Shown: in pieces, positions 31,463-41,023 of the stretch
Numbering within the stretch: position 1 is the stretch's first letter
Layout: the number at the start of each line of letters is the position of its first letter
NCBI GenBank assembly: GCA_021159885.1
Contig: JAGHDO010000071.1
Span: 1-52,854, forward strand
DNA length: 52,854 nucleotides
Reading direction: 5' to 3'
DNA from: Synergistota bacterium
GTDB lineage: Bacteria; Synergistota; GBS-1
Translations under genes and position numbers: made by a program
The notes under the pieces: generated by a model
Database searches by the model: none
What the model was told of the DNA's origin: nothing
Seen by the model: only the letters and a program-made list of their open reading frames with translations

Positions 31463-31496
31463 TTAAGGCGGGGGGTTAAATATCCCTCCGCCTTAA
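31463..31496. terminator. terminator hairpin between convergent ackA and arcA
   Basis: The arms 31463-31475 (TTAAGGCGGGGGG) and 31484-31496 (CCCTCCGCCTTAA) pair over 13 positions with one G-U and an 8-nt loop. The right arm lies in the last codons of arcA and the stop codon falls in the loop. On the minus strand the hairpin is followed by CCCTTTTATT, a moderate U-tract; on plus there is none. It best serves the long livJ-arcA transcript and may also stop ackA. Confidence 0.65.
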
Positions 31497-32690
31497 TGGC
31501 AAGGTCATACATCTGGGACCCCCTCTTCCCCTAACGAGCTCCGCACCTTCTATCTCAAGCACTCTGATTCCTGCTTTGCGAAGCTCCTCATTTGTCTTCT
31601 CATTCCTGGCATAGGTTATAACCACACCGGGAGCTAATGCAAAGGTGTTAGTCCCATCGTTCCACTGTTCTCTACCAGCTATCACCGTGTCTCCCCCACC
31701 GGTATATATAATCTCCGATTCACCTAAGCCAAGAGCCTCCTCAATTGAAGAAATAAGATCCTCTTTCATGGTTATCGTTATATCTCCATCCTTATTCAGG
31801 GTTAGCTCGAAAACTCTCATCCTATCAAGCGTAAACGGGTAAACTACAAATACACCCCAATCTACCATAGTGAATACGGTATCCAAGTGCATAAAAGCTC
31901 TCCTCTTAGGAATCTCTATCGCTAAAACCTTTTTAAACCCTCCATACTTAAACAGCCTTCTTGAGACCCTCTCAACTGTTGCAGGAAGTGTCCTTTCGCT
32001 ACAACCTATAGCGACCGTATCGCTCGAAAGAACGAGAATATCTCCTCCTTCCACGGTATAAGGAAACACATCATCTTTATCTTTCCCGAACCAAAAGTTA
32101 ATCGGATCTCTCCTAAAAAGAGGATGATTCTCAAAAACATACTTAAGATAAAGAGGCTCTCTGCTCCTGGCAGGATGCTTCATCGAGCTTATGATAACGC
32201 CATTGCCAACAATAGCAGCAGGATCCCTCATAAAATAAAGATTTGGGAGAGGCCTTATATAAAAGTCGTTGTCAGATCTCATAAGTGCCGATAATCCAAG
32301 CTCTGAAAGCTGTACCTCTCTCTTGTAAATACCGCCGATCAGGACGTCCACAAGTCTCTCCGAAGGAAGCTCCATTAAATAGGATGCAAGATAATTAGAC
32401 GTTCTTGGATTAAAGAGCTCTAATCTTACAACATCCGTTATAAGTGATCTCCTTGTCTCTTCATCATGCAATATATCCTTAAGCAGATCCTCTATATAGT
32501 AAACCTCTACTCCTTCCTTTCTCAAAAGCTCCGCAAAACGATCATGCTCCTGTTGGGCTCTCTTAAGCCAAGGAATATCATCGAATAGAAGAATATCCAT
32601 ATTCTCAACTGTGAGTCTCTCAAGCTCCTTACCAGGCCTGTGAAGCATAACCGCTTCTAAGGTTCCTATCTCGGAAAAAACCCTCAGCAT
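31476..32690 (-). CDS. arcA: arginine deiminase
   Basis: The 404-aa guanidino-group-modifying enzyme has LHRPGKELERLTVEN at the N-terminus, FMRDPAAIVGNGVIIS, the His-Asp motif MHLDTVFTMVD and the active-site cysteine C394 in GRGGPRCMTLPL. It hydrolyses arginine to citrulline and ammonia, the first step of the deiminase ATP-generating route. No ornithine carbamoyltransferase or carbamate kinase gene is in the window. The ATG overlaps the stop of the PP2C/HATPase/STAS fusion by 7 nt, so the enzyme is translated as the last gene of a signalling run, an unusual position for arcA. Confidence 0.93.
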   Translation of the reverse strand: MLRVFSEIGTLEAVMLHRPGKELERLTVENMDILLFDDIPWLKRAQQEHDRFAELLRKEGVEVYYIEDLLKDILHDEETRRSLITDVVRLELFNPRTSNYLASYLMELPSERLVDVLIGGIYKREVQLSELGLSALMRSDNDFYIRPLPNLYFMRDPAAIVGNGVIISSMKHPARSREPLYLKYVFENHPLFRRDPINFWFGKDKDDVFPYTVEGGDILVLSSDTVAIGCSERTLPATVERVSRRLFKYGGFKKVLAIEIPKRRAFMHLDTVFTMVDWGVFVVYPFTLDRMRVFELTLNKDGDITITMKEDLISSIEEALGLGESEIIYTGGGDTVIAGREQWNDGTNTFALAPGVVITYARNEKTNEELRKAGIRVLEIEGAELVRGRGGPRCMTLPLRRRDI

Positions 32691-34669
32691 TCTTTATCAC
32701 CATCCAGTAAATCTTCCAATCCCATGGTCTTTAAAACTCTTTTAACCTCGTCCTGCCACCTCACAAATGATATTTCGATTCTCCTCCTCTCAGCTTCTCT
32801 CTTGAGCTCCATCAGTGCTTGAATTCCCTTAACATCTATAAAGTTTATTCCAGACATATCTATACGCAACCGCTTAGGTCTATACCTGTGGAGAATTTCC
32901 TCAACCTTGCATTTTATTAGAACTGCTTTTGCGTGATTTAGCTTTCCGCGTGGATGATATTCAACGAGATCTTTCTCTATGCTCACCTCCTCTTTTCGAA
33001 ATTTCTTAACGAGAACCACTTCATTACCCGGAGGAATGAAGTAAAGATCATCCATGACCGCCCTCATTATAGAGATCCCTCTGCCTCCCTCACGCAGAGA
33101 AGTTTCATCCCTTGCAATTTCCTGAAAATTGAATCCTTCGCCTTCATCCCTAACGCTAATCTCAAGCATTCCCTTATCGTAATCCCAAAGAGCTTTTATA
33201 AAAACCTTTTTATCAATCCTTCCTGAATTACCATGAAATATAGCATTTAATATAGCCTCATTAAGAGCGAGTTTTAAATCATAAATATCCTCTGCGGAAA
33301 AACCAAGTTCATCAGCCTTAGTGAGTATCGGTGCTATAGACGTCCTTATATTCTCTATACTGCTTGGAATAACAGTCTCGTAAACGTCAATATTTCTCCT
33401 TGTATCAAGCTTGCTTAAACCGACTATAAATAGCGTTATATCGTCCCGAGGAGCTTTTCCTTCCATAAATTTCTTAACCCTTTCCTTAATGATTTCAGAT
33501 ATAAAGGTAATATCGAGCTTTCCTTCCACAGAAATCAGCTCTTTAAGCAGGTTTTTTAAACGCTCCTCTCCAAAGAATTCCCCCTCGGGAGATAATGCTT
33601 CGATAAGCCCATCTGTGTAAAGGAGAACACACTCTCCATCTTCTAAAAAGACTTCTTCTTCAGGATACTCAAGTAGACTTGACAAAACTCCAAGAGGAGG
33701 TCCACCCGTCTTTACCTCGACTATTCCAGTCTTTTTCAAAAGTATGGGAGGCAAATGCCCTCCAACCGCTATCTTACCCCTGCCATCCGGAAGAAGGGCA
33801 AAGATTGCCATCGTTACGAATCTGCCAAGCTCCTCAAATAAGCACATCATCTCATTCAGCTTAGCAAGTAGCTGTCCAGGGGAAGAAACAACCCTAACGA
33901 GAGCCGATATAGCCCCTTTAAGCATCGCAGTCAGGAAAGCTGCAGGAACTCCCTTACCGGAAACATCAGCTATAACACCTATGATAGAACCATCACTCAT
34001 AGGAAAAATATCATAATAATCTCCTCCAACAATCCTCGCAGGTTCAAACCACGCACTTAACCGAAAGCGTCCCTCCTTGGGAAGCGAGGAAGGTAATATC
34101 GCTCGTTGAATATCTGAAGCAACTCTTATTTCAAGTTCCAGCTTTTCCCTCTCTCTGCGCTCCTTAAGAAGATCCTGTCCTTTTAAAACAGCACCTGTCA
34201 TGAGAGCGAGAGCATTTAGGATCCTCGCATCGTGCGCCATAAAGGGTTTGTTCTCTTTTCTTCCGAGGATTATGACACCATAGACTTTGTCCACATGATA
34301 AACAGGTATAACTATGAAATGCTTCCAAGGAACTCTCTCTTCATTACAGTCGTTGAATATAACCACATCTCTAACCTCAAGAGCCTCCTTAAGATACTCT
34401 TTAACGCTGTCCGTGAGAGTAAACTCGATATCACCTATTGTATCTCTTAACACTATATCCCCGTTTTCAGAACAACAGGAGAAAACGTAATCCACATCAG
34501 GGTAGAGAGAAAAAAAGAGATTTCTAAGCTCATAACAAGCTTCCTCCCTTGAGGAAGTAAAGAGGTGAGGAAGCTTTTGAGCGAAGTCGTAAAAGAGATT
34601 AACCTCCTCATAAAGATTTGCCAGTTCATCAAGCGCAAGGTAAAGCTCTTCCTCACTCTCCCCCCGCAT
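32684..34669 (-). CDS. GAF - PP2C phosphatase - HATPase - STAS fusion, single-chain partner-switch protein
   Basis: The 661-aa protein combines four modules: a GAF-like domain (about 20-165), a RsbU/SpoIIE-type PP2C phosphatase (about 183-418), a RsbW-type histidine-kinase-like ATPase (about 430-560) and a C-terminal STAS domain (about 570-655). Phosphatase motifs are GGDYYD (D217, D221), ADVSGKG (D235), YTDGL (D353) and RDDIT. The ATPase has the N-box LALNEAILNAIFHG and RDEGEGFNF. In the STAS domain the phospho-Ser position of SpoIIAA-like proteins is K614 (FIDVKGIQAL), so it probably cannot be phosphorylated there. It overlaps the receiver gene by 17 nt. The target may be a sigma factor or another partner. 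Confidence 0.9.
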   Translation of the reverse strand: MRGESEEELYLALDELANLYEEVNLFYDFAQKLPHLFTSSREEACYELRNLFFSLYPDVDYVFSCCSENGDIVLRDTIGDIEFTLTDSVKEYLKEALEVRDVVIFNDCNEERVPWKHFIVIPVYHVDKVYGVIILGRKENKPFMAHDARILNALALMTGAVLKGQDLLKERREREKLELEIRVASDIQRAILPSSLPKEGRFRLSAWFEPARIVGGDYYDIFPMSDGSIIGVIADVSGKGVPAAFLTAMLKGAISALVRVVSSPGQLLAKLNEMMCLFEELGRFVTMAIFALLPDGRGKIAVGGHLPPILLKKTGIVEVKTGGPPLGVLSSLLEYPEEEVFLEDGECVLLYTDGLIEALSPEGEFFGEERLKNLLKELISVEGKLDITFISEIIKERVKKFMEGKAPRDDITLFIVGLSKLDTRRNIDVYETVIPSSIENIRTSIAPILTKADELGFSAEDIYDLKLALNEAILNAIFHGNSGRIDKKVFIKALWDYDKGMLEISVRDEGEGFNFQEIARDETSLREGGRGISIMRAVMDDLYFIPPGNEVVLVKKFRKEEVSIEKDLVEYHPRGKLNHAKAVLIKCKVEEILHRYRPKRLRIDMSGINFIDVKGIQALMELKREAERRRIEISFVRWQDEVKRVLKTMGLEDLLDGDKEC

Positions 34670-35039
34670 CTTTCAACCCCTTAAGAAGCCTTTTAACAAT
34701 TGTTTCAAGCTTTACAGGACTAAATGGTTTGAATAGAAAATCCACGACACCCAAGCTCTTCATCTCATCGATCATTGACCTCTCCCCTACCGCTGTTAAA
34801 ACAAGAACAGGTATATTCTTATACTCATCATATCTCCTAAACTCTCTCATAAATGAGGGACCATCCATTTCAGGCATCATTATATCCAACAATATAAGAT
34901 CGGGTTTCTCCTTCTTTAATAGATAGAAAGCCTCTTTTCCATTAGAAGCCTCCAGGACCCTATATCCCCTTTTCGATAGAATATGATTTACTAATCTCCT
35001 TAAAAGCGGGGAATCGTCAACGACGAGAATCGTAGCCAT
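34653..35039 (-). CDS. stand-alone response-regulator receiver protein (CheY-like)
   Basis: The 128-aa protein is a receiver domain only: acidic pocket D8/D9 in VVDDSPLLRR, phospho-acceptor D52 in LILLDIMMPEMDG, the switch Thr in VLVLTAVGE and the conserved Lys in FLFKPFSP. No output domain is attached. It lies between a STAS protein and the GAF-PP2C-HATPase-STAS fusion, so it probably passes a histidine-kinase signal to that phosphatase, as in RssB/RsbU-type modules. The cognate kinase is not in the window. It could instead serve chemotaxis, but its location argues against that. Confidence 0.9.
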   Translation of the reverse strand: MATILVVDDSPLLRRLVNHILSKRGYRVLEASNGKEAFYLLKKEKPDLILLDIMMPEMDGPSFMREFRRYDEYKNIPVLVLTAVGERSMIDEMKSLGVVDFLFKPFSPVKLETIVKRLLKGLKDAGGE

Positions 35040-35048
35040 GGCTATAAA

Positions 35049-35387
35049 CTAAAACGAACTAAGTGCCTCTTGCTCATCATCAAAGAATTCAAATACTCTG
35101 TTTAGCCTCGTCAGTTCGAAAATCCTCTTAACCTGCGGCGAAAGAGGACCCAAGATCTTAAGATCTCCCCCCTCCTTTCCAACCTTCCTTAACCCAGATA
35201 TAAGGATTCCCAAGCCCGTTGAATCTATGTAGGTGGTCCCGCTTAGATCAACGATAATTTTCACTCTTCCTTCATTTATCTCCCTCAGCATAATATCGCG
35301 AAGGTCGCCCGCCGTTTCCACGGAAACCTCCCCATCAACCCTTATTACAGATATCACGCCTTTTCTCTCAAGGCTCACTCCCATCAT
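35049..35387 (-). CDS. STAS-domain anti-sigma-factor antagonist (RsbV/SpoIIAA-like)
   Basis: The 112-aa single STAS domain begins with a short strand (GVISVIRVDGEVSVETAGDL). It carries the signature IIVDLSGTTYIDSTGLGIL, in which S56/T57 occupy the phosphorylation position of SpoIIAA/RsbV. It is therefore a plausible substrate of the RsbW-type ATPase module and of the PP2C phosphatase encoded two genes downstream. The start lies 3 nt after the ARPP-1-type gene, and either of the two initial ATGs is possible. Confidence 0.92.
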   Translation of the reverse strand: MMGVSLERKGVISVIRVDGEVSVETAGDLRDIMLREINEGRVKIIVDLSGTTYIDSTGLGILISGLRKVGKEGGDLKILGPLSPQVKRIFELTRLNRVFEFFDDEQEALSSF

Positions 35388-35390
35388 TTC

Positions 35391-36311
35391 TCACCTCACT
35401 TTAAAAAGGGAAAGATGTACCAACTTGTCTTCAAGCAATAAGACTTTTCCCAAAAGTTTAACCCCATCGCCAAACCTCAGTTCCACCCCACACCCTATCG
35501 AGGGATAGCTCCTCACCCTCGAAAAAGTAAGCGAGGAAATAAACCTCCTTACCCTCTTGAGCGAAACGGAGGAACTCCCCCGTGTAAGGAGCCCCTCCAT
35601 GAGATAACTCTTTATTAACTTCCTTAGCATTCTCGAAAGGATCTTACTACTCCCGAAAAGATCGATAGCTATGAGAGCTGGCGTTTCTATTATAAAGCCA
35701 GAAAATTTCTCCTTCAAGCCCTCCGCCTCGCTTGCATAACGCTCTATCTCATCCTTAAGGTTATCGTACGCATCATGAAAAGAAGAAGTTCTCGATGAAA
35801 TCCGAAGGCTTGATAGGGCATCCCTTATCGAATTCCAGAGCGAGCGCTGATCAGACCTATATCCCTTGTTTTCCTGAAGCGATCTATTAACCCCACTACA
35901 TAGTAAACTACGCAATGAGGGATTGAGCATAGTTCCTCCCGGGATAAAGGAATTTCCTCCCCGCCATCTTCCTTCCTCAACGCAGGAAACCGGTAATCTA
36001 TAAGATCTGCCGGGTTCAAGCCAAACCGAGGTATTAGATACTCTATTCTGATATGCGCCTAATAGCTCCTCTCCGTCCAAGAGAAAGATAGGGGTATTAG
36101 AAAAATTCTCAAAGATAACAGTATCAACGCGAGGAGGATCAAGCTCTTTAATAGAGAATCTCCCTTCCTCAAGCGCGATAGGTAAATTTTCCTCAAGACT
36201 ATCCGGTACCTTTATGGGATAAACAACAAGGTTTCTCAGGAAGAAAGGCTCTTCAAAATCGATATCTTTCTTAAGACTCTCCAAGATACGCTTTCCGTAC
36301 TCTATCATCAT
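35391..36311 (-). CDS. ARPP-1/DUF6569-type protein
   Basis: The 306-aa protein resembles the ARPP-1 (DUF6569) family: NLVVYPI near the N-terminus, then PIFLLDGEELLGAYQNRV and LPVSCVEEGRW (residues 74-115). A serine-rich helical middle and a C-terminal strand region (GCGVELRFGDG) follow. The biochemical role of the family is not established, as far as I know. The gene starts 41 nt inside the end of livF and is followed after 3 nt by the STAS gene, so it links the amino-acid transporter to the signalling genes. Family assignment is from remembered motifs and should be checked by profile search. Confidence 0.7.
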   Translation of the reverse strand: MMIEYGKRILESLKKDIDFEEPFFLRNLVVYPIKVPDSLEENLPIALEEGRFSIKELDPPRVDTVIFENFSNTPIFLLDGEELLGAYQNRVSNTSVWLEPGRSYRLPVSCVEEGRWRGGNSFIPGGTMLNPSLRSLLCSGVNRSLQENKGYRSDQRSLWNSIRDALSSLRISSRTSSFHDAYDNLKDEIERYASEAEGLKEKFSGFIIETPALIAIDLFGSSKILSRMLRKLIKSYLMEGLLTRGSSSVSLKRVRRFISSLTFSRVRSYPSIGCGVELRFGDGVKLLGKVLLLEDKLVHLSLFKVR

Positions 36312-36975
36312 TCAGCAAATCTATACCAAGTCCCTCCATAACTATTCTTCCCGTTTCGAGAACGTATCCATAATGAGCTATCTTCAGGGCAGCACGGGCG
36401 TTTTGCTCTATAAGAAGTATGGTTCTACCTTCATCATTTATCTGTTTTATAACCTCGAAGACTTCCTTTACAAGTAGAGGAGCCAAGCCAAGCGAAGGTT
36501 CATCCATCATAAGAAGACGTGGTTTACCCATGAGAGCTCTTCCAAGAGCGAGCATTTGTTGTTCTCCCCCCGAGAGAGTTCCCGCTTTCTGCCATATCCT
36601 CTCTCTGAGTCTCGGAAAGAGCTCAAAAACCCACTGAAGGTCCCTTTCTATTCCCTCTTCATCGGTTCTGGCATACGCTCCCATTTTCAGGTTCTCCATA
36701 ACCGTAAGATTAGGAAAGACTCTTCTTCCTTCGGGAACCATTGCCACACCCATTTGGACTATCTCATGAGTAGACTTGCCAAGAATCTCTTTTCCATCAA
36801 ACTGTATAGAACCCTCAGCATCTACAAGCCCACAGATAGCCCTTAAAGTCGTCGTCTTGCCAGCACCATTTGCACCTATAAGCGTAACTATCTTCCCATG
36901 AGGAACCTCAAAGCTTATTCCTTTAAGAGCATGAATTCCCCCATAATAAACGTGCAGATTTTCAACCTTAAGCAT
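36271..36975 (-). CDS. livF: branched-chain amino-acid ABC transporter ATP-binding protein LivF
   Basis: The 234-aa ABC ATPase has Walker A LIGANGAGKTTTLRAICG, the LivF-type MGVAMVPEGRRVFPNLTV, signature TLSGGEQQMLALGRAL and Walker B LLMMDEPSLGLAP, with the switch His replaced by the LivF-typical LLIEQN. It energises the LivHM permease. The ATG overlaps the livG stop as TAATG. The 3' end is overlapped by 41 nt by the ARPP-1-type gene, so transcription continues into the signalling genes. Confidence 0.95.
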   Translation of the reverse strand: MLKVENLHVYYGGIHALKGISFEVPHGKIVTLIGANGAGKTTTLRAICGLVDAEGSIQFDGKEILGKSTHEIVQMGVAMVPEGRRVFPNLTVMENLKMGAYARTDEEGIERDLQWVFELFPRLRERIWQKAGTLSGGEQQMLALGRALMGKPRLLMMDEPSLGLAPLLVKEVFEVIKQINDEGRTILLIEQNARAALKIAHYGYVLETGRIVMEGLGIDLLNDDRVRKAYLGES

Positions 36976-37745
36976 TACTCCTCAGCCTCCCCTAAGTAAG
37001 CCTCTATTACTTTTGGGTTCTTTTGTATGGCCTCCGGGGGACCTTCCGCAATACTTATTCCATGATCTAAAACCCTGATCCTCTCACATATTCCCATGAC
37101 AACCTTCATATCGTGCTCTATGAGGAAAACGGTTAAGCCAAAATCATCACGTATCATCCTTATAAAATCCATAAGGTCCTGCGTTTCCTGAGGATTCATT
37201 CCCGCAGCGGGCTCATCCAGCAGAAGCAGCTTGGGATGAGTTGCAAGCGCTCTTGCTATCTCAAGTCTTCTCTGCTGACCGTAGGGAAGCCCACCAGCTA
37301 TAAAGTCCTCGTACTCTAAAAGTCCGAGCTTCGAGAGAAGTTCCCTTGCCTCTTCAACCATCTTTTTTTCCTCTTTCTTATAGTTGGGGCTTCTAAAAAC
37401 CGCTTTAAAAATGTTAGATTTGAGCTGATAGTGAAACGACGCCATAACGTTATCCAAAACGGTTAGCTCTTTAAAAAGCCTTATATTCTGAAAAGTTCTC
37501 GCTATGCCTCTTGTTATTATGTAATTGGTCGATTTACCAGTTATATCTTCCCCGTCAAAATATATTTTACCAACTGTGGGAACATACACTCCGGTTATCA
37601 TGTTGAAAACCGTAGTCTTACCTGCTCCATTGGGACCTATAAGACCAACAAGCTCCCCTTTTCTAATTTCTATGTTAAAATCATTTACGGCTCTTAATCC
37701 TCCAAAGTCCATCGTTACGCCCTCAAGCTTCAGTAGCGCTTCCAA
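36975..37745 (-). CDS. livG: branched-chain amino-acid ABC transporter ATP-binding protein LivG
   Basis: The 256-aa ATPase has Walker A LIGPNGAGKTTVFNMITG, the LivG motif GIARTFQNIRLFKELTVL, GLPYGQQRRLEIARALA as signature, LLLLDEPAAGMNP as Walker B and FLIEHDM as switch. It pairs with LivF. The start is TTG inside the 3' end of livM (23-nt overlap). All motifs are intact. Confidence 0.95.
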   Translation of the reverse strand: MEALLKLEGVTMDFGGLRAVNDFNIEIRKGELVGLIGPNGAGKTTVFNMITGVYVPTVGKIYFDGEDITGKSTNYIITRGIARTFQNIRLFKELTVLDNVMASFHYQLKSNIFKAVFRSPNYKKEEKKMVEEARELLSKLGLLEYEDFIAGGLPYGQQRRLEIARALATHPKLLLLDEPAAGMNPQETQDLMDFIRMIRDDFGLTVFLIEHDMKVVMGICERIRVLDHGISIAEGPPEAIQKNPKVIEAYLGEAEE

Positions 37746-38823
37746 CGTCTTTCACCCCCTTAAGAGGGTATATCTTATTGATTATAAAGTCCCATGAAAG
37801 CTCTTTCCTTCCCATTAGCCCCCTTTGCCAGTAAAGCATTATGAATATGAGCAACAGAGAAAAAACGACCATTCTCATACCCGGTATTCCAGGAATATGG
37901 ACGGGTCCTATATCCATCGGGCTTTCCACCGAGCGTAGCATCTCTGAGAGAAGAACGAAGATAAAAGCTGCAATTGCAGATCCCGTAAAGCTTCCCAATC
38001 CTCCGAGAACTATTATTATAAGAAGGTTAAATGTAAAGAAGAAAGAAAACAGCTTGGGATCTATGGTTCCGAGAAGCGAGGCAAGAAGACCCCCACCTAC
38101 TCCCAGGAAGAAACCCGCCAGGGTTAGAGCAAGAAGCTTGTGCTTCTTTATGTCTATTCCCACAGCTTCAGCTGCTATCTCATCCTCTCTTATAGCTTCA
38201 AAAGCCCTTCCATAGCTTGATGTCCTAAGCCACCTCATGAAAAAGTATGTAAAGAAAGCCCACCCCCACGTCCAATAGAGATTAACATAGCCTGGTATAT
38301 CCTTCAGCCCCAGAGCCCCATTCGTTACAGATATTAGATTGCTCGCAAGAACCACCATTATCTCTCCAAAACCTAAGGTAACTATGGCAAGATAATCTCC
38401 TCTTAGCTTAAATGAAGGAATCCCAAGAAGATAAGCAGCTACCGCTCCTATTATACCAGCCAGAATAAGCGAAGGCAAAAATGGCAGACAGATGGAATTA
38501 AGAGGCCATATCAGCGGCTGAATTATGAAAGCAAGTGCCTTTTTCTGAACCGGCATGGTAAGCAGGGCAACTGTATATGCCCCCAAAGCTATAAAAGCAT
38601 TAGGACCTAACATAAACTGCCCTAAGGTACCGTTTACAAGGTTATAAGCCATCGCCATCGTCATATAGACAGCAGAAACATTTAGAATCCTTATAAAATA
38701 TGGATCCAGAAAATCATCCGCCTTTGAGAGAAATATAAAGAAAAGGGTTAAAAAAGCAACGTTTAATATTATCCTCAACCGCTTTCTCTTTTGAAGTATG
38801 AGCTCTCTCTCCATCGCAGTCAT
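37723..38823 (-). CDS. livM: branched-chain amino-acid ABC transporter permease LivM
   Basis: The 366-aa membrane protein has about ten hydrophobic segments. It shows the LivM landmarks GDYLAIVTLGFGEI, SSYGRAFEAIREDEIAAEAVG with IDIKKHKLLAL (the EAA-type loop contacting the ATPases) and IIIVLGGLGSFTGSAIAA. It forms the translocation path with LivH. ATG at 38823 and a second ATG three codons later are both possible starts. Confidence 0.94.
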   Translation of the reverse strand: MTAMERELILQKRKRLRIILNVAFLTLFFIFLSKADDFLDPYFIRILNVSAVYMTMAMAYNLVNGTLGQFMLGPNAFIALGAYTVALLTMPVQKKALAFIIQPLIWPLNSICLPFLPSLILAGIIGAVAAYLLGIPSFKLRGDYLAIVTLGFGEIMVVLASNLISVTNGALGLKDIPGYVNLYWTWGWAFFTYFFMRWLRTSSYGRAFEAIREDEIAAEAVGIDIKKHKLLALTLAGFFLGVGGGLLASLLGTIDPKLFSFFFTFNLLIIIVLGGLGSFTGSAIAAFIFVLLSEMLRSVESPMDIGPVHIPGIPGMRMVVFSLLLIFIMLYWQRGLMGRKELSWDFIINKIYPLKGVKDVGSATEA

Positions 38824-38829
38824 CCCCCA

Positions 38830-39723
38830 TCACACCTTTTCCTTCATGGATTCTCCAAGAAGCCCGGTTGGCTTAAAAAGAAGTATGATTATTAAAAGAG
38901 AAAAGGCAATCGCGTCTCTATATCCAGCTATCTGAGGCATGAAAGCAACTATAAGAATCTCCGCCATTCCAAGTATAAAGCCTCCCAACATAGCACCGAA
39001 GACGTTTCCTATTCCCCCGAAAACCGCAGCTATAAAGGCCTTTAAACCCGGCATTATTCCCATATAAGGGTTGATTTGGGGGAATTTTACAGCCCACATT
39101 ATTCCTCCTGCAGCAGCCAGAGCAGATCCAACGGCAAAGGTAATTGATATCACTTTATCAACGTTTACGCCCATTAGGCTCGTCGTCTCGAGGTCCGTTG
39201 CGACGGCTCTCATAGCCATTCCTACCTTAGTTTTATAAATTAGATATATTAAGCCAACGAGAAGTATGCCTGCTATTATCGGAATCCATATGGTAAAGGA
39301 AACCAGATAAATGCCCCTTATGTTCATCCCTATATCAAATATGTGAGGACGTGGAAACGCCTTAGGGCGGCCTCCATATACCACAAGAGCTATACTCTCC
39401 AGGAAGAAAGAAACACCTATGGCAGTTATTAGAGCAGAAATTCTTGGAGCTCTTCTCAAGGGTCTGTACGCTCCAACGTAAGTTAGAACTCCGAGGAGAG
39501 CCGTTAGCGCAACGGCTATTATCCATGAAATCTCCCAAGGAAGATGAAACATGAGTATACCGAAGTAAGCAAAGTAGCACCCCATCATCATAATATCGCC
39601 ATGGGCAAAGTTTATTAGCCTTATAATTCCATAAACCATCGTATAACCTATTGCAACCAACGCATATAAACTACCTAAGGATATTCCATTAGCTAACTGT
39701 TGAAGAAAATCAGTTAGATCCAA
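38830..39723 (-). CDS. livH: branched-chain amino-acid ABC transporter permease LivH
   Basis: The 297-aa permease begins DFLQQLANGISLGSLYALVA with GYTMVYGIIRLINFAHGDI, the clear LivH opening. It contains GMAMRAVATDLETTSLMGVN (ATPase-contact loop) and IAAVFGGIGNVFGAMLGG. It has eight or nine transmembrane helices. The start is TTG preceded by AAGGAGG. It follows the livJ hairpin and overlaps nothing, with 6 nt to livM. Confidence 0.95.
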   Translation of the reverse strand: MDLTDFLQQLANGISLGSLYALVAIGYTMVYGIIRLINFAHGDIMMMGCYFAYFGILMFHLPWEISWIIAVALTALLGVLTYVGAYRPLRRAPRISALITAIGVSFFLESIALVVYGGRPKAFPRPHIFDIGMNIRGIYLVSFTIWIPIIAGILLVGLIYLIYKTKVGMAMRAVATDLETTSLMGVNVDKVISITFAVGSALAAAGGIMWAVKFPQINPYMGIMPGLKAFIAAVFGGIGNVFGAMLGGFILGMAEILIVAFMPQIAGYRDAIAFSLLIIILLFKPTGLLGESMKEKV

Positions 39724-39759
39724 CTTTAATCCGCCTCCTTCGGCAGAAAGTCAATAATT

Positions 39760-39795
39760 TTCCGGTGGCTTCTCCTGCAAGAGAAGCCACCGGAA
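39760..39795 (-). promoter_or_regulatory. 15-bp stem-loop between livJ and livH
   Basis: TTCCGGTGGCTTCTC (39760-39774) and its exact complement (39781-39795) flank a 6-nt loop. On the minus-strand transcript it follows livJ and is trailed by AATTATTG, a poor U-tract. Such hairpins often protect the 3' end of binding-protein mRNA and cause partial termination, so that LivJ is made in excess of the permease. That role is inferred. Confidence 0.6.
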
Positions 39796-39854
39796 GAAGA
39801 TTAACAATAGCCAATTCTATGCAACCATCCCACCTCTAAGTCTCCCTCTTCTCC

Positions 39855-40976
39855 TTAAGGATTAACAGTAGTCACATATACAAACTTACCATTCTTCACA
39901 GTCTGAATAACCGCTGCCTTAATGGCATTGTGATTCTTATCGAACTTAAACACGCCGGTAACTCCCGCAAAGCTCTTTATACTTTCAAGAGCATCCCTTA
40001 TCTTCTCAGGATCCGTGCTCTTAGCCTTCTTAATAGCGTGAATTACAACGAAATAGGCATCTGCTGCGAGAGCTCCAAGAGAGTCAGTATTCTTATTGAA
40101 CTTCTTATGATAAGCCTTAACGAATTCCTTACCGAGCTTGGTGGAAACACCGCCCTCATCGTAATGATTCGTGAAGTAGATGCCTTCCACAGCCTTACCA
40201 CCTATCTTAATAAGCTCCGGAGCATAAGCACCGTCTCCTGAGAGGATATAAGATTTAACGCCAAGCTCACGAGCCTGCTTAGAGAAGAGGGCAATTTCAG
40301 GATAATACCCAGGAATGTAAATGACATCTGGTTTTTTAGCCTTAACAGCGGTAACCTGTGCGGTAAAGTCCTGATCACCGGTCCTGTACATAACCTTAGC
40401 AACTATCTTCCCACCAAGCTTCTTAAACGACTCTTCGAAGAACTTGGCCAAACCAACGCAGTAGTCCTGCTGAACATCCATGACTATTGCAGCCTTACGC
40501 GCCTTAAGATTGTTGTAAGCGAACTTAGCCGCTATCTTACCCTGGAATGGATCGATAAAGCAAACACGGAAGACATACTTCTTACCCTGTGTCACAAGCG
40601 GATTCGTCGAAGCAGGAGACACCATGGGAACGCGATACTTCTCAGCAACAGGTCCTCCTGCTAATGAAACGGAGCTACAAACGGCACCTATAATAGCACA
40701 GACCTTATTATACTTAATAAGCCTCTCAACAGCGTTCGCTCCCTCTACCTTATCTCCCTTATTATCAACGAGGAAGAGCTTGACCTGCTTGCCCAAGACG
40801 GTGGGATACATTTCATGAGCTACCTGGAGACCATTCCAGCTCATCTGACCAAAGGCAGCTACCGGACCGGTCATCGGAAGATATACACCAATTCTGACCT
40901 CATCAGCTGCCCACGCTGCAGAAAAAAGACCGAGGATTAAGGCAACCCCCGTTAAAACTACCAGCAGACGCTTCAT
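39855..40976 (-). CDS. livJ: branched-chain amino-acid ABC transporter substrate-binding protein LivJ/LivK
   Basis: The 373-aa exported protein starts MKRLLVVLTGVALILGLFSA, ending in a cleavable site near AWAAD. A Leu/Ile/Val-binding-protein fold follows: VRIGVYLPMTGPVAAFGQM, AIIGAVCSSVSLAGGPVAEK, PMVSPASTNPLVT and YEVIIIPGYY-type lobes. It would capture a branched-chain or other hydrophobic amino acid outside the inner membrane. I chose the second ATG (40976), which sits 7 nt after GGAGG; the ATG two codons upstream abuts the ribosome binding site. It is the first gene of the long run ending at arcA. Confidence 0.95.
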   Translation of the reverse strand: MKRLLVVLTGVALILGLFSAAWAADEVRIGVYLPMTGPVAAFGQMSWNGLQVAHEMYPTVLGKQVKLFLVDNKGDKVEGANAVERLIKYNKVCAIIGAVCSSVSLAGGPVAEKYRVPMVSPASTNPLVTQGKKYVFRVCFIDPFQGKIAAKFAYNNLKARKAAIVMDVQQDYCVGLAKFFEESFKKLGGKIVAKVMYRTGDQDFTAQVTAVKAKKPDVIYIPGYYPEIALFSKQARELGVKSYILSGDGAYAPELIKIGGKAVEGIYFTNHYDEGGVSTKLGKEFVKAYHKKFNKNTDSLGALAADAYFVVIHAIKKAKSTDPEKIRDALESIKSFAGVTGVFKFDKNHNAIKAAVIQTVKNGKFVYVTTVNP

Positions 40977-41023
40977 AAACATCCCTCCTTTAATTGAAGA
41001 ATTTTAAAGGTTCTACAAGCCGT

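Follow-up and report, generated by a model that had tools for sequence, protein, structure and literature searches.

A phosphatase, a kinase and a STAS domain in a single chain are already known from Rv1364c of M. tuberculosis, a one-chain protein whose STAS residue Ser600 is autophosphorylated and autodephosphorylated (PMC7693655, PMC10950880). Opposing activities in one chain that act on a free STAS protein are likewise already known from HsbR, CrsR and SypE. In the HsbR/HsbA system of Pseudomonas aeruginosa and the CrsR/CrsA system of Shewanella, a one-chain phosphatase and GHKL kinase controls the phosphorylation state of a free STAS protein; the phosphosite of HsbA is Ser56, and a receiver domain is involved in the HsbR and CrsR systems (PMC6482189). 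SypE of Vibrio fischeri also holds both activities in one protein, and they act on the free STAS protein SypA at Ser56 (PMC10120452). CapK, an HTH-STAS-GHKL protein, has its own STAS domain beside the kinase and phosphorylates a distinct STAS protein; in an AlphaFold 3 model of CapK, backed by a W68A mutant, single-stranded DNA lies between the STAS and GHKL domains (PMC13373217). Control of the phosphatase by a GAF-like domain and helical linker has been proposed for many proteins of this general type (PMC12143880).

Here we analyze a fusion gene and its neighbors in a 52,854-nucleotide stretch of DNA (the window) from a Synergistota bacterium. The fusion protein resembles Rv1364c (PAS-PP2C-GHKL-STAS) in having a sensor, phosphatase, kinase and STAS domain in equal order in one chain, and Rv1364c is its best solved sequence relative (PDB 3ke6). 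The two differ in the sensor, which is a PAS domain in Rv1364c and weakly GAF-like in the fusion, and in the STAS domain, where Ser600 contrasts with V613. A further difference is the free STAS protein encoded in the fusion's gene row. Since the architecture agrees and the acceptor serine does not, the fusion works partly like Rv1364c and should not be filed as one.

The remaining systems share other features with this locus. Like HsbR and CrsR, the fusion combines PP2C and GHKL modules, motif-complete here, in one chain alongside a free STAS protein with an acceptor serine, encoded here in the same row. However, the receiver is fused in HsbR and CrsR and is a separate 128-aa protein here, the N-terminus here is GAF-like, and the C-terminal STAS domain of the fusion is absent from HsbR and CrsR. 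SypE likewise has kinase and phosphatase in one protein, with a free STAS protein as target, but its order is kinase-receiver-phosphatase and it has no fused STAS domain. CapK/CapS is similar to the window in pairing a GHKL kinase chain that has its own STAS domain with a separate STAS protein; it differs in its HTH-STAS-GHKL order, in the lack of a phosphatase, and in its substrate CapS, a STAS-wHTH repressor.

Domain Architecture and Catalytic Motifs

The fusion is encoded by 661 codons without interruption:

32684..34669, minus strand: 661-aa fusion, a single uninterrupted ORF with GAF-like, SpoIIE/PP2C, GHKL and STAS parts
residues 1 to ~165: N-terminal GAF-like region
residues ~146 to 190: helical linker
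residues 226 to 416: SpoIIE/PP2C domain (Pfam, 8e-39, above cut-off)
residues 436 to 555: RsbW/SpoIIAB-type GHKL ATPase (Pfam HATPase_c_2, 1e-20, above cut-off)
residues 566 to 655: STAS domain (Pfam STAS, 1.5e-14, above cut-off)

The first-pass annotation had described phosphatase, ATPase and STAS domains behind a GAF-like domain with intact phosphatase and ATPase motifs. Pfam recovered all three of those domains; the sensor gave only a weak GAF_2 match (residues 95 to 159) below that family's own cut-off, and for this reason we call it "GAF-like". The main catalytic motifs were all located, as claimed. In the PP2C domain these are GGD217, D235-VSGKG, TDG (D353) and DD409/410, which supply the metal-site aspartates of the phosphatase, and in the GHKL domain the N-box E471/N475, DEGEG at 508 to 512 and GGRG at 528 to 531. 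The HATPase_c_2 score was 74.1 bits against a Pfam cut-off of 27.4. The NCBIfam RsbW and SpoIIAB equivalogs also match the GHKL part, but below their cut-offs. Around the position of SpoIIAB Arg20, the alignment of the GHKL part is ambiguous. Pfam detected no Sulfate_transp membrane domain, which sets the fusion apart from SulP/SLC26 transporters. When the whole chain was modeled from its single sequence, the pLDDT was 37.6, and the model was uninformative on contact between the STAS and GHKL domains.

Gene Neighborhood and Genome Context

The neighbors of the fusion lie on the same strand:

31476..32690, minus strand: arginine deiminase gene (Pfam ADI, 1.8e-118), directly downstream, 7-nt overlap with the fusion
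34653..35039, minus strand: 128-aa stand-alone receiver (response regulator; Pfam Response_reg, 2.5e-31), overlapping the fusion start by 17 nt
35049..35387, minus strand: 112-aa free STAS protein, RsbV/SpoIIAA-type (TIGR00377), phosphosite S56 at 35220-35222
35391..36311, minus strand: ARPP-1 family protein (PF20208, Pfam), 3 nt upstream of the STAS gene and overlapping livF
36271..40982, minus strand: branched-chain amino-acid ABC transporter genes livJHMGF, upstream, named by sequence reading rather than family search

Read along the minus strand, the order is livJ, livH, livM, livG, livF, ARPP-1, free STAS, receiver, fusion and arginine deiminase. From livH onward the genes overlap or are separated by gaps of at most 9 nt, and we infer that the row is co-transcribed. 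The partner-switch genes are thus flanked by branched-chain amino-acid uptake on one side and arginine deiminase on the other in one tight row (31476-40982), a placement that hints at a connection with amino-acid catabolism. No match to the arginine deiminase occurred in three genomes of the same family. Foreign origin by composition was unsupported, as GC and GC3 are like those of the neighbors.

No SpoIIE domain other than that of the fusion was found in the genome, and of the genome's two STAS domains one belongs to the fusion. The GHKL matches comprise one strong RsbW-type domain (that of the fusion), one CBS-GHKL protein on another contig, and weaker matches. This inventory offers no evident partners other than the free STAS protein and the fusion. 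The CBS-CBS-GHKL protein is of an anti-sigma-kinase-like type and is encoded near PHP-domain-like and NuoE-like genes (L034 891-1850, G000:C18). A same-family relative has a stressosome-like row of RsbR-like, RsbS-like, RsbT-like GHKL, GHKL/SpoIIE and GGDEF proteins (L129, G002:C6, 574-3930); having only two STAS domains, the genome of the window lacks such a row.

The sigma factors of this genome are an RpoD-type protein, a FliA-type protein whose gene adjoins CheC/CheD-like genes, and four short Sigma70_r2 proteins that are probably ECF factors. No cognate sigma gene was found in or near the gene row. Because the genome has FlgM as well as the FliA-type sigma factor, an output like that of HsbA and FlgM is one candidate.

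The Acceptor Position of the Fused STAS Domain

Two features locate the acceptor position:

32705..32977, minus strand: fused STAS domain (PF01740 match; predicted model with pLDDT 78; PDB fold search)
32828..32833, minus strand: V613 (GTT, 32831-32833), at the position of SpoIIAA Ser58, and K614 (AAG, 32828-32830)

The model of the fused STAS domain has a SpoIIAA-like fold; the PDB search matched it to SpoIIAA and TM1442, with Foldseek TM scores of 0.63 to 0.69 to 1vc1 and 1tid chain B. When the free STAS protein was aligned to PDB sequences, wild-type SpoIIAA read mDSsGLG and 1tid/1til read mDAsGLG. We take 1tid/1til to be the S58A mutant of SpoIIAA. Its alanine directly follows the aspartate, and the acceptor is therefore the residue right after the Asp of xDSxG. 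This placement agrees with SypA, in which Ser56 is the phosphosite and Ser57 its neighbor (PMC10120452).

In the fusion motif I611-D612-V613-K614-G615, V613 occupies the acceptor position and begins predicted helix 2 in the model, and K614 aligns with T57 in the free STAS protein. The first-pass annotation had assigned the missing phosphosite to K614, one residue off; the PDB alignments reject K614 and place the site at V613. Its broader claim, that the fused domain is not phosphorylatable at the usual site, stands with V613 in that position. A sequence scan found no Ser or Thr in residues 607 to 633, the nearest being S606 and S634. No Ser or Thr codon can be reached from the V613 codon (GTT) with fewer than two base changes, so V613 is not a single miscalled base and a sequencing error is unlikely. 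The fused domain scored 47.0 bits against TIGR00377, below the cut-off of 53.45, and lacks the acceptor Ser.

The free STAS protein scored 72.8 bits against the same cut-off of 53.45. It had been reported to lie two genes upstream and to keep its acceptor (IDSTG); the PDB alignment bears this out, with the acceptor at S56 and the receiver gene in between. It has better relatives than the fusion, at 33 to 46% identity; these keep the Ser, and some are encoded near separate GHKL and PP2C genes. Being the only other STAS protein found in the genome, with its acceptor present, the free STAS protein is the likely substrate, and its role as exchangeable partner is the most economical reading. The idea that the fused domain is a recent copy of it was unsupported (only 19 residues align). 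Since the two are only distantly similar, interchangeable binding to the GHKL module is not implied.

How Unusual Is the Loss?

We compared the acceptor position in 63 distinct STAS sequences, mainly from the phylum of the window. The sample favors high-scoring STAS domains, so its figures are descriptive and give no rate estimate. About 52 of the 63 have Ser at the acceptor position, among them every short stand-alone STAS protein as well as STAS domains joined to other non-transporter parts. The remaining 11 comprise four with Thr (two of them RsbR-like), three with Ala, two with Ile, one with Tyr, and the fusion with Val. Eight of these 11 are in transporter-type frames, five with a Sulfate_transp match; the sequence examined around the remaining three was too short for a Sulfate_transp call, and their open frames of 544 to 564 aa fit that type. 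Only the fusion combines an acceptor position that is neither Ser nor Thr with a non-transporter context in this survey. In nine of ten further clusters, the motif could be read in 19 STAS domains; every one has Ser, and some overlap with the first set. Judged from the sequences alone, loss of the phospho-acceptor in the fused domain is real, and it is unusual among the STAS domains examined.

Relatives of the Fusion

A search of 188 genomes from the phylum, three of them from the same family, found no homolog that covers all domains of the fusion in a single unbroken frame. At E ≤ 1e-30, no match in the 188 genomes exceeded 38% identity. In 61 relatives searched at E ≤ 1e-3, those matches that reached a STAS domain did so by crossing stop codons into separate neighboring genes. 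A contig search with six short fusion peptides yielded one Spirochaetales phosphatase (29%), which is weak evidence of absence. Searching plasmids with the fusion gave no match covering 80% of it, viral contigs yielded one phosphatase only, and a 237-aa GHKL-STAS query against plasmids matched mostly RsbW genes and no fusion. As no ortholog was found, loss of the acceptor could be peculiar to this copy or reflect decay.

PP2C-GHKL fusions without a C-terminal STAS domain do exist in the phylum. One to three STAS genes often lie with the phylum's PP2C/GHKL genes, and each of these STAS genes encodes the Ser; many clusters carry more than one STAS gene. In one family, tandem STAS gene pairs are common, mostly near PP2C and GHKL genes (L136-L143).

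On plasmids of D. actinosclerus, D. grandis and D. aquaticus, the same four modules occur in one gene row:

L135 5734-8403, L132 2812-5415 and L133 2653-5377: STAS1 - PP2C-GHKL - STAS2 - receiver cluster of Deinococcus plasmids

The N-terminal region encoded there aligns with that of the fusion. However, STAS1 and STAS2 are separate proteins that all have DSS, so that the second STAS keeps its Ser, the PP2C-GHKL part is only about 28% identical, and the receiver has a different position in the gene order. The cluster lies downstream of a glycosyltransferase-like gene. We found no paper describing it or its function. The comparison suggests that the fused STAS domain corresponds to the second STAS protein of a Deinococcus-like module, with descent not proven.

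Discussion

On balance, we lean toward a controller that combines two enzymes and acts on the free STAS protein, with the phospho-dead fused STAS as a regulatory or docking domain that is not exchanged. The PP2C phosphatase would be regulated by the GAF-like domain and the helical linker, perhaps together with the receiver encoded just upstream. The GHKL kinase would run the opposite reaction; S56 in the free STAS protein would be the site for both enzymes, and its phosphorylation state would decide which target that protein binds. The fused domain would be the module's second STAS, which became part of the chain by gene fusion and has lost its acceptor (V613). Because of that loss the kinase should be unable to switch it; the domain may instead serve the GHKL module as a fixed docking or regulatory element, where its most plausible role is to compete with the free STAS protein or to control that protein's access. 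We infer all three of the following: that the free STAS protein is the substrate, that the fused domain contacts the GHKL module, and the direction of its effect.

The earlier idea of a clamp or pseudo-substrate is possible. In a specific form of it, the phospho-dead domain would occupy the kinase site of its own GHKL module or that of a dimer partner, and the free STAS protein would have to outcompete it, giving an auto-inhibited switch with a threshold; we advance this tentatively, at somewhat short of an even chance. The domain might instead be an allosteric or ligand-sensing module, with a small molecule or protein that binds the STAS domain or the STAS-GHKL groove tuning the kinase. CapK provides a precedent, with its own STAS domain beside the kinase, a separate STAS substrate and single-stranded DNA modeled between the domains (PMC13373217), and SulP/SLC26 STAS domains, in which the acceptor here is often A, I or T, are among the fold and sequence matches. 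However, no ligand-binding signature was identified in the fused domain, and its C-terminal position is unlike the order in CapK; we consider a sensing role rather unlikely, although it is the main rival to our preferred reading of the domain as a tethered, non-switchable partner of the GHKL module.

Decay, or a merely structural role in dimerization or stability with no regulation, would suit a single known copy that has lost its acceptor and has low similarity to the free STAS protein. Decay would be expected to affect the fold too, but the domain is intact in length and predicted fold, in a clean reading frame, which makes this explanation improbable. Least probable is a self-contained switch in which a different residue of the fused domain gains and loses the phosphate in cis, leaving the free STAS protein only an accessory role. 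The shared domain order with Rv1364c, the best solved relative, whose Ser600 is autophosphorylated (PMC10950880), speaks for it; against it are the Val at the acceptor position, the Ser/Thr-free stretch from 607 to 633, and the location of S606 and S634 away from the kinase-facing start of helix 2.

As a sequence-level observation the absence of the acceptor is solid, and its functional meaning is not. The Deinococcus clusters, with their modules kept separate, are a natural comparison for the fusion. If the fused STAS domain is a permanent pseudo-partner, fusing a dead exchange partner to the enzyme would give a reversible switch a fixed threshold.
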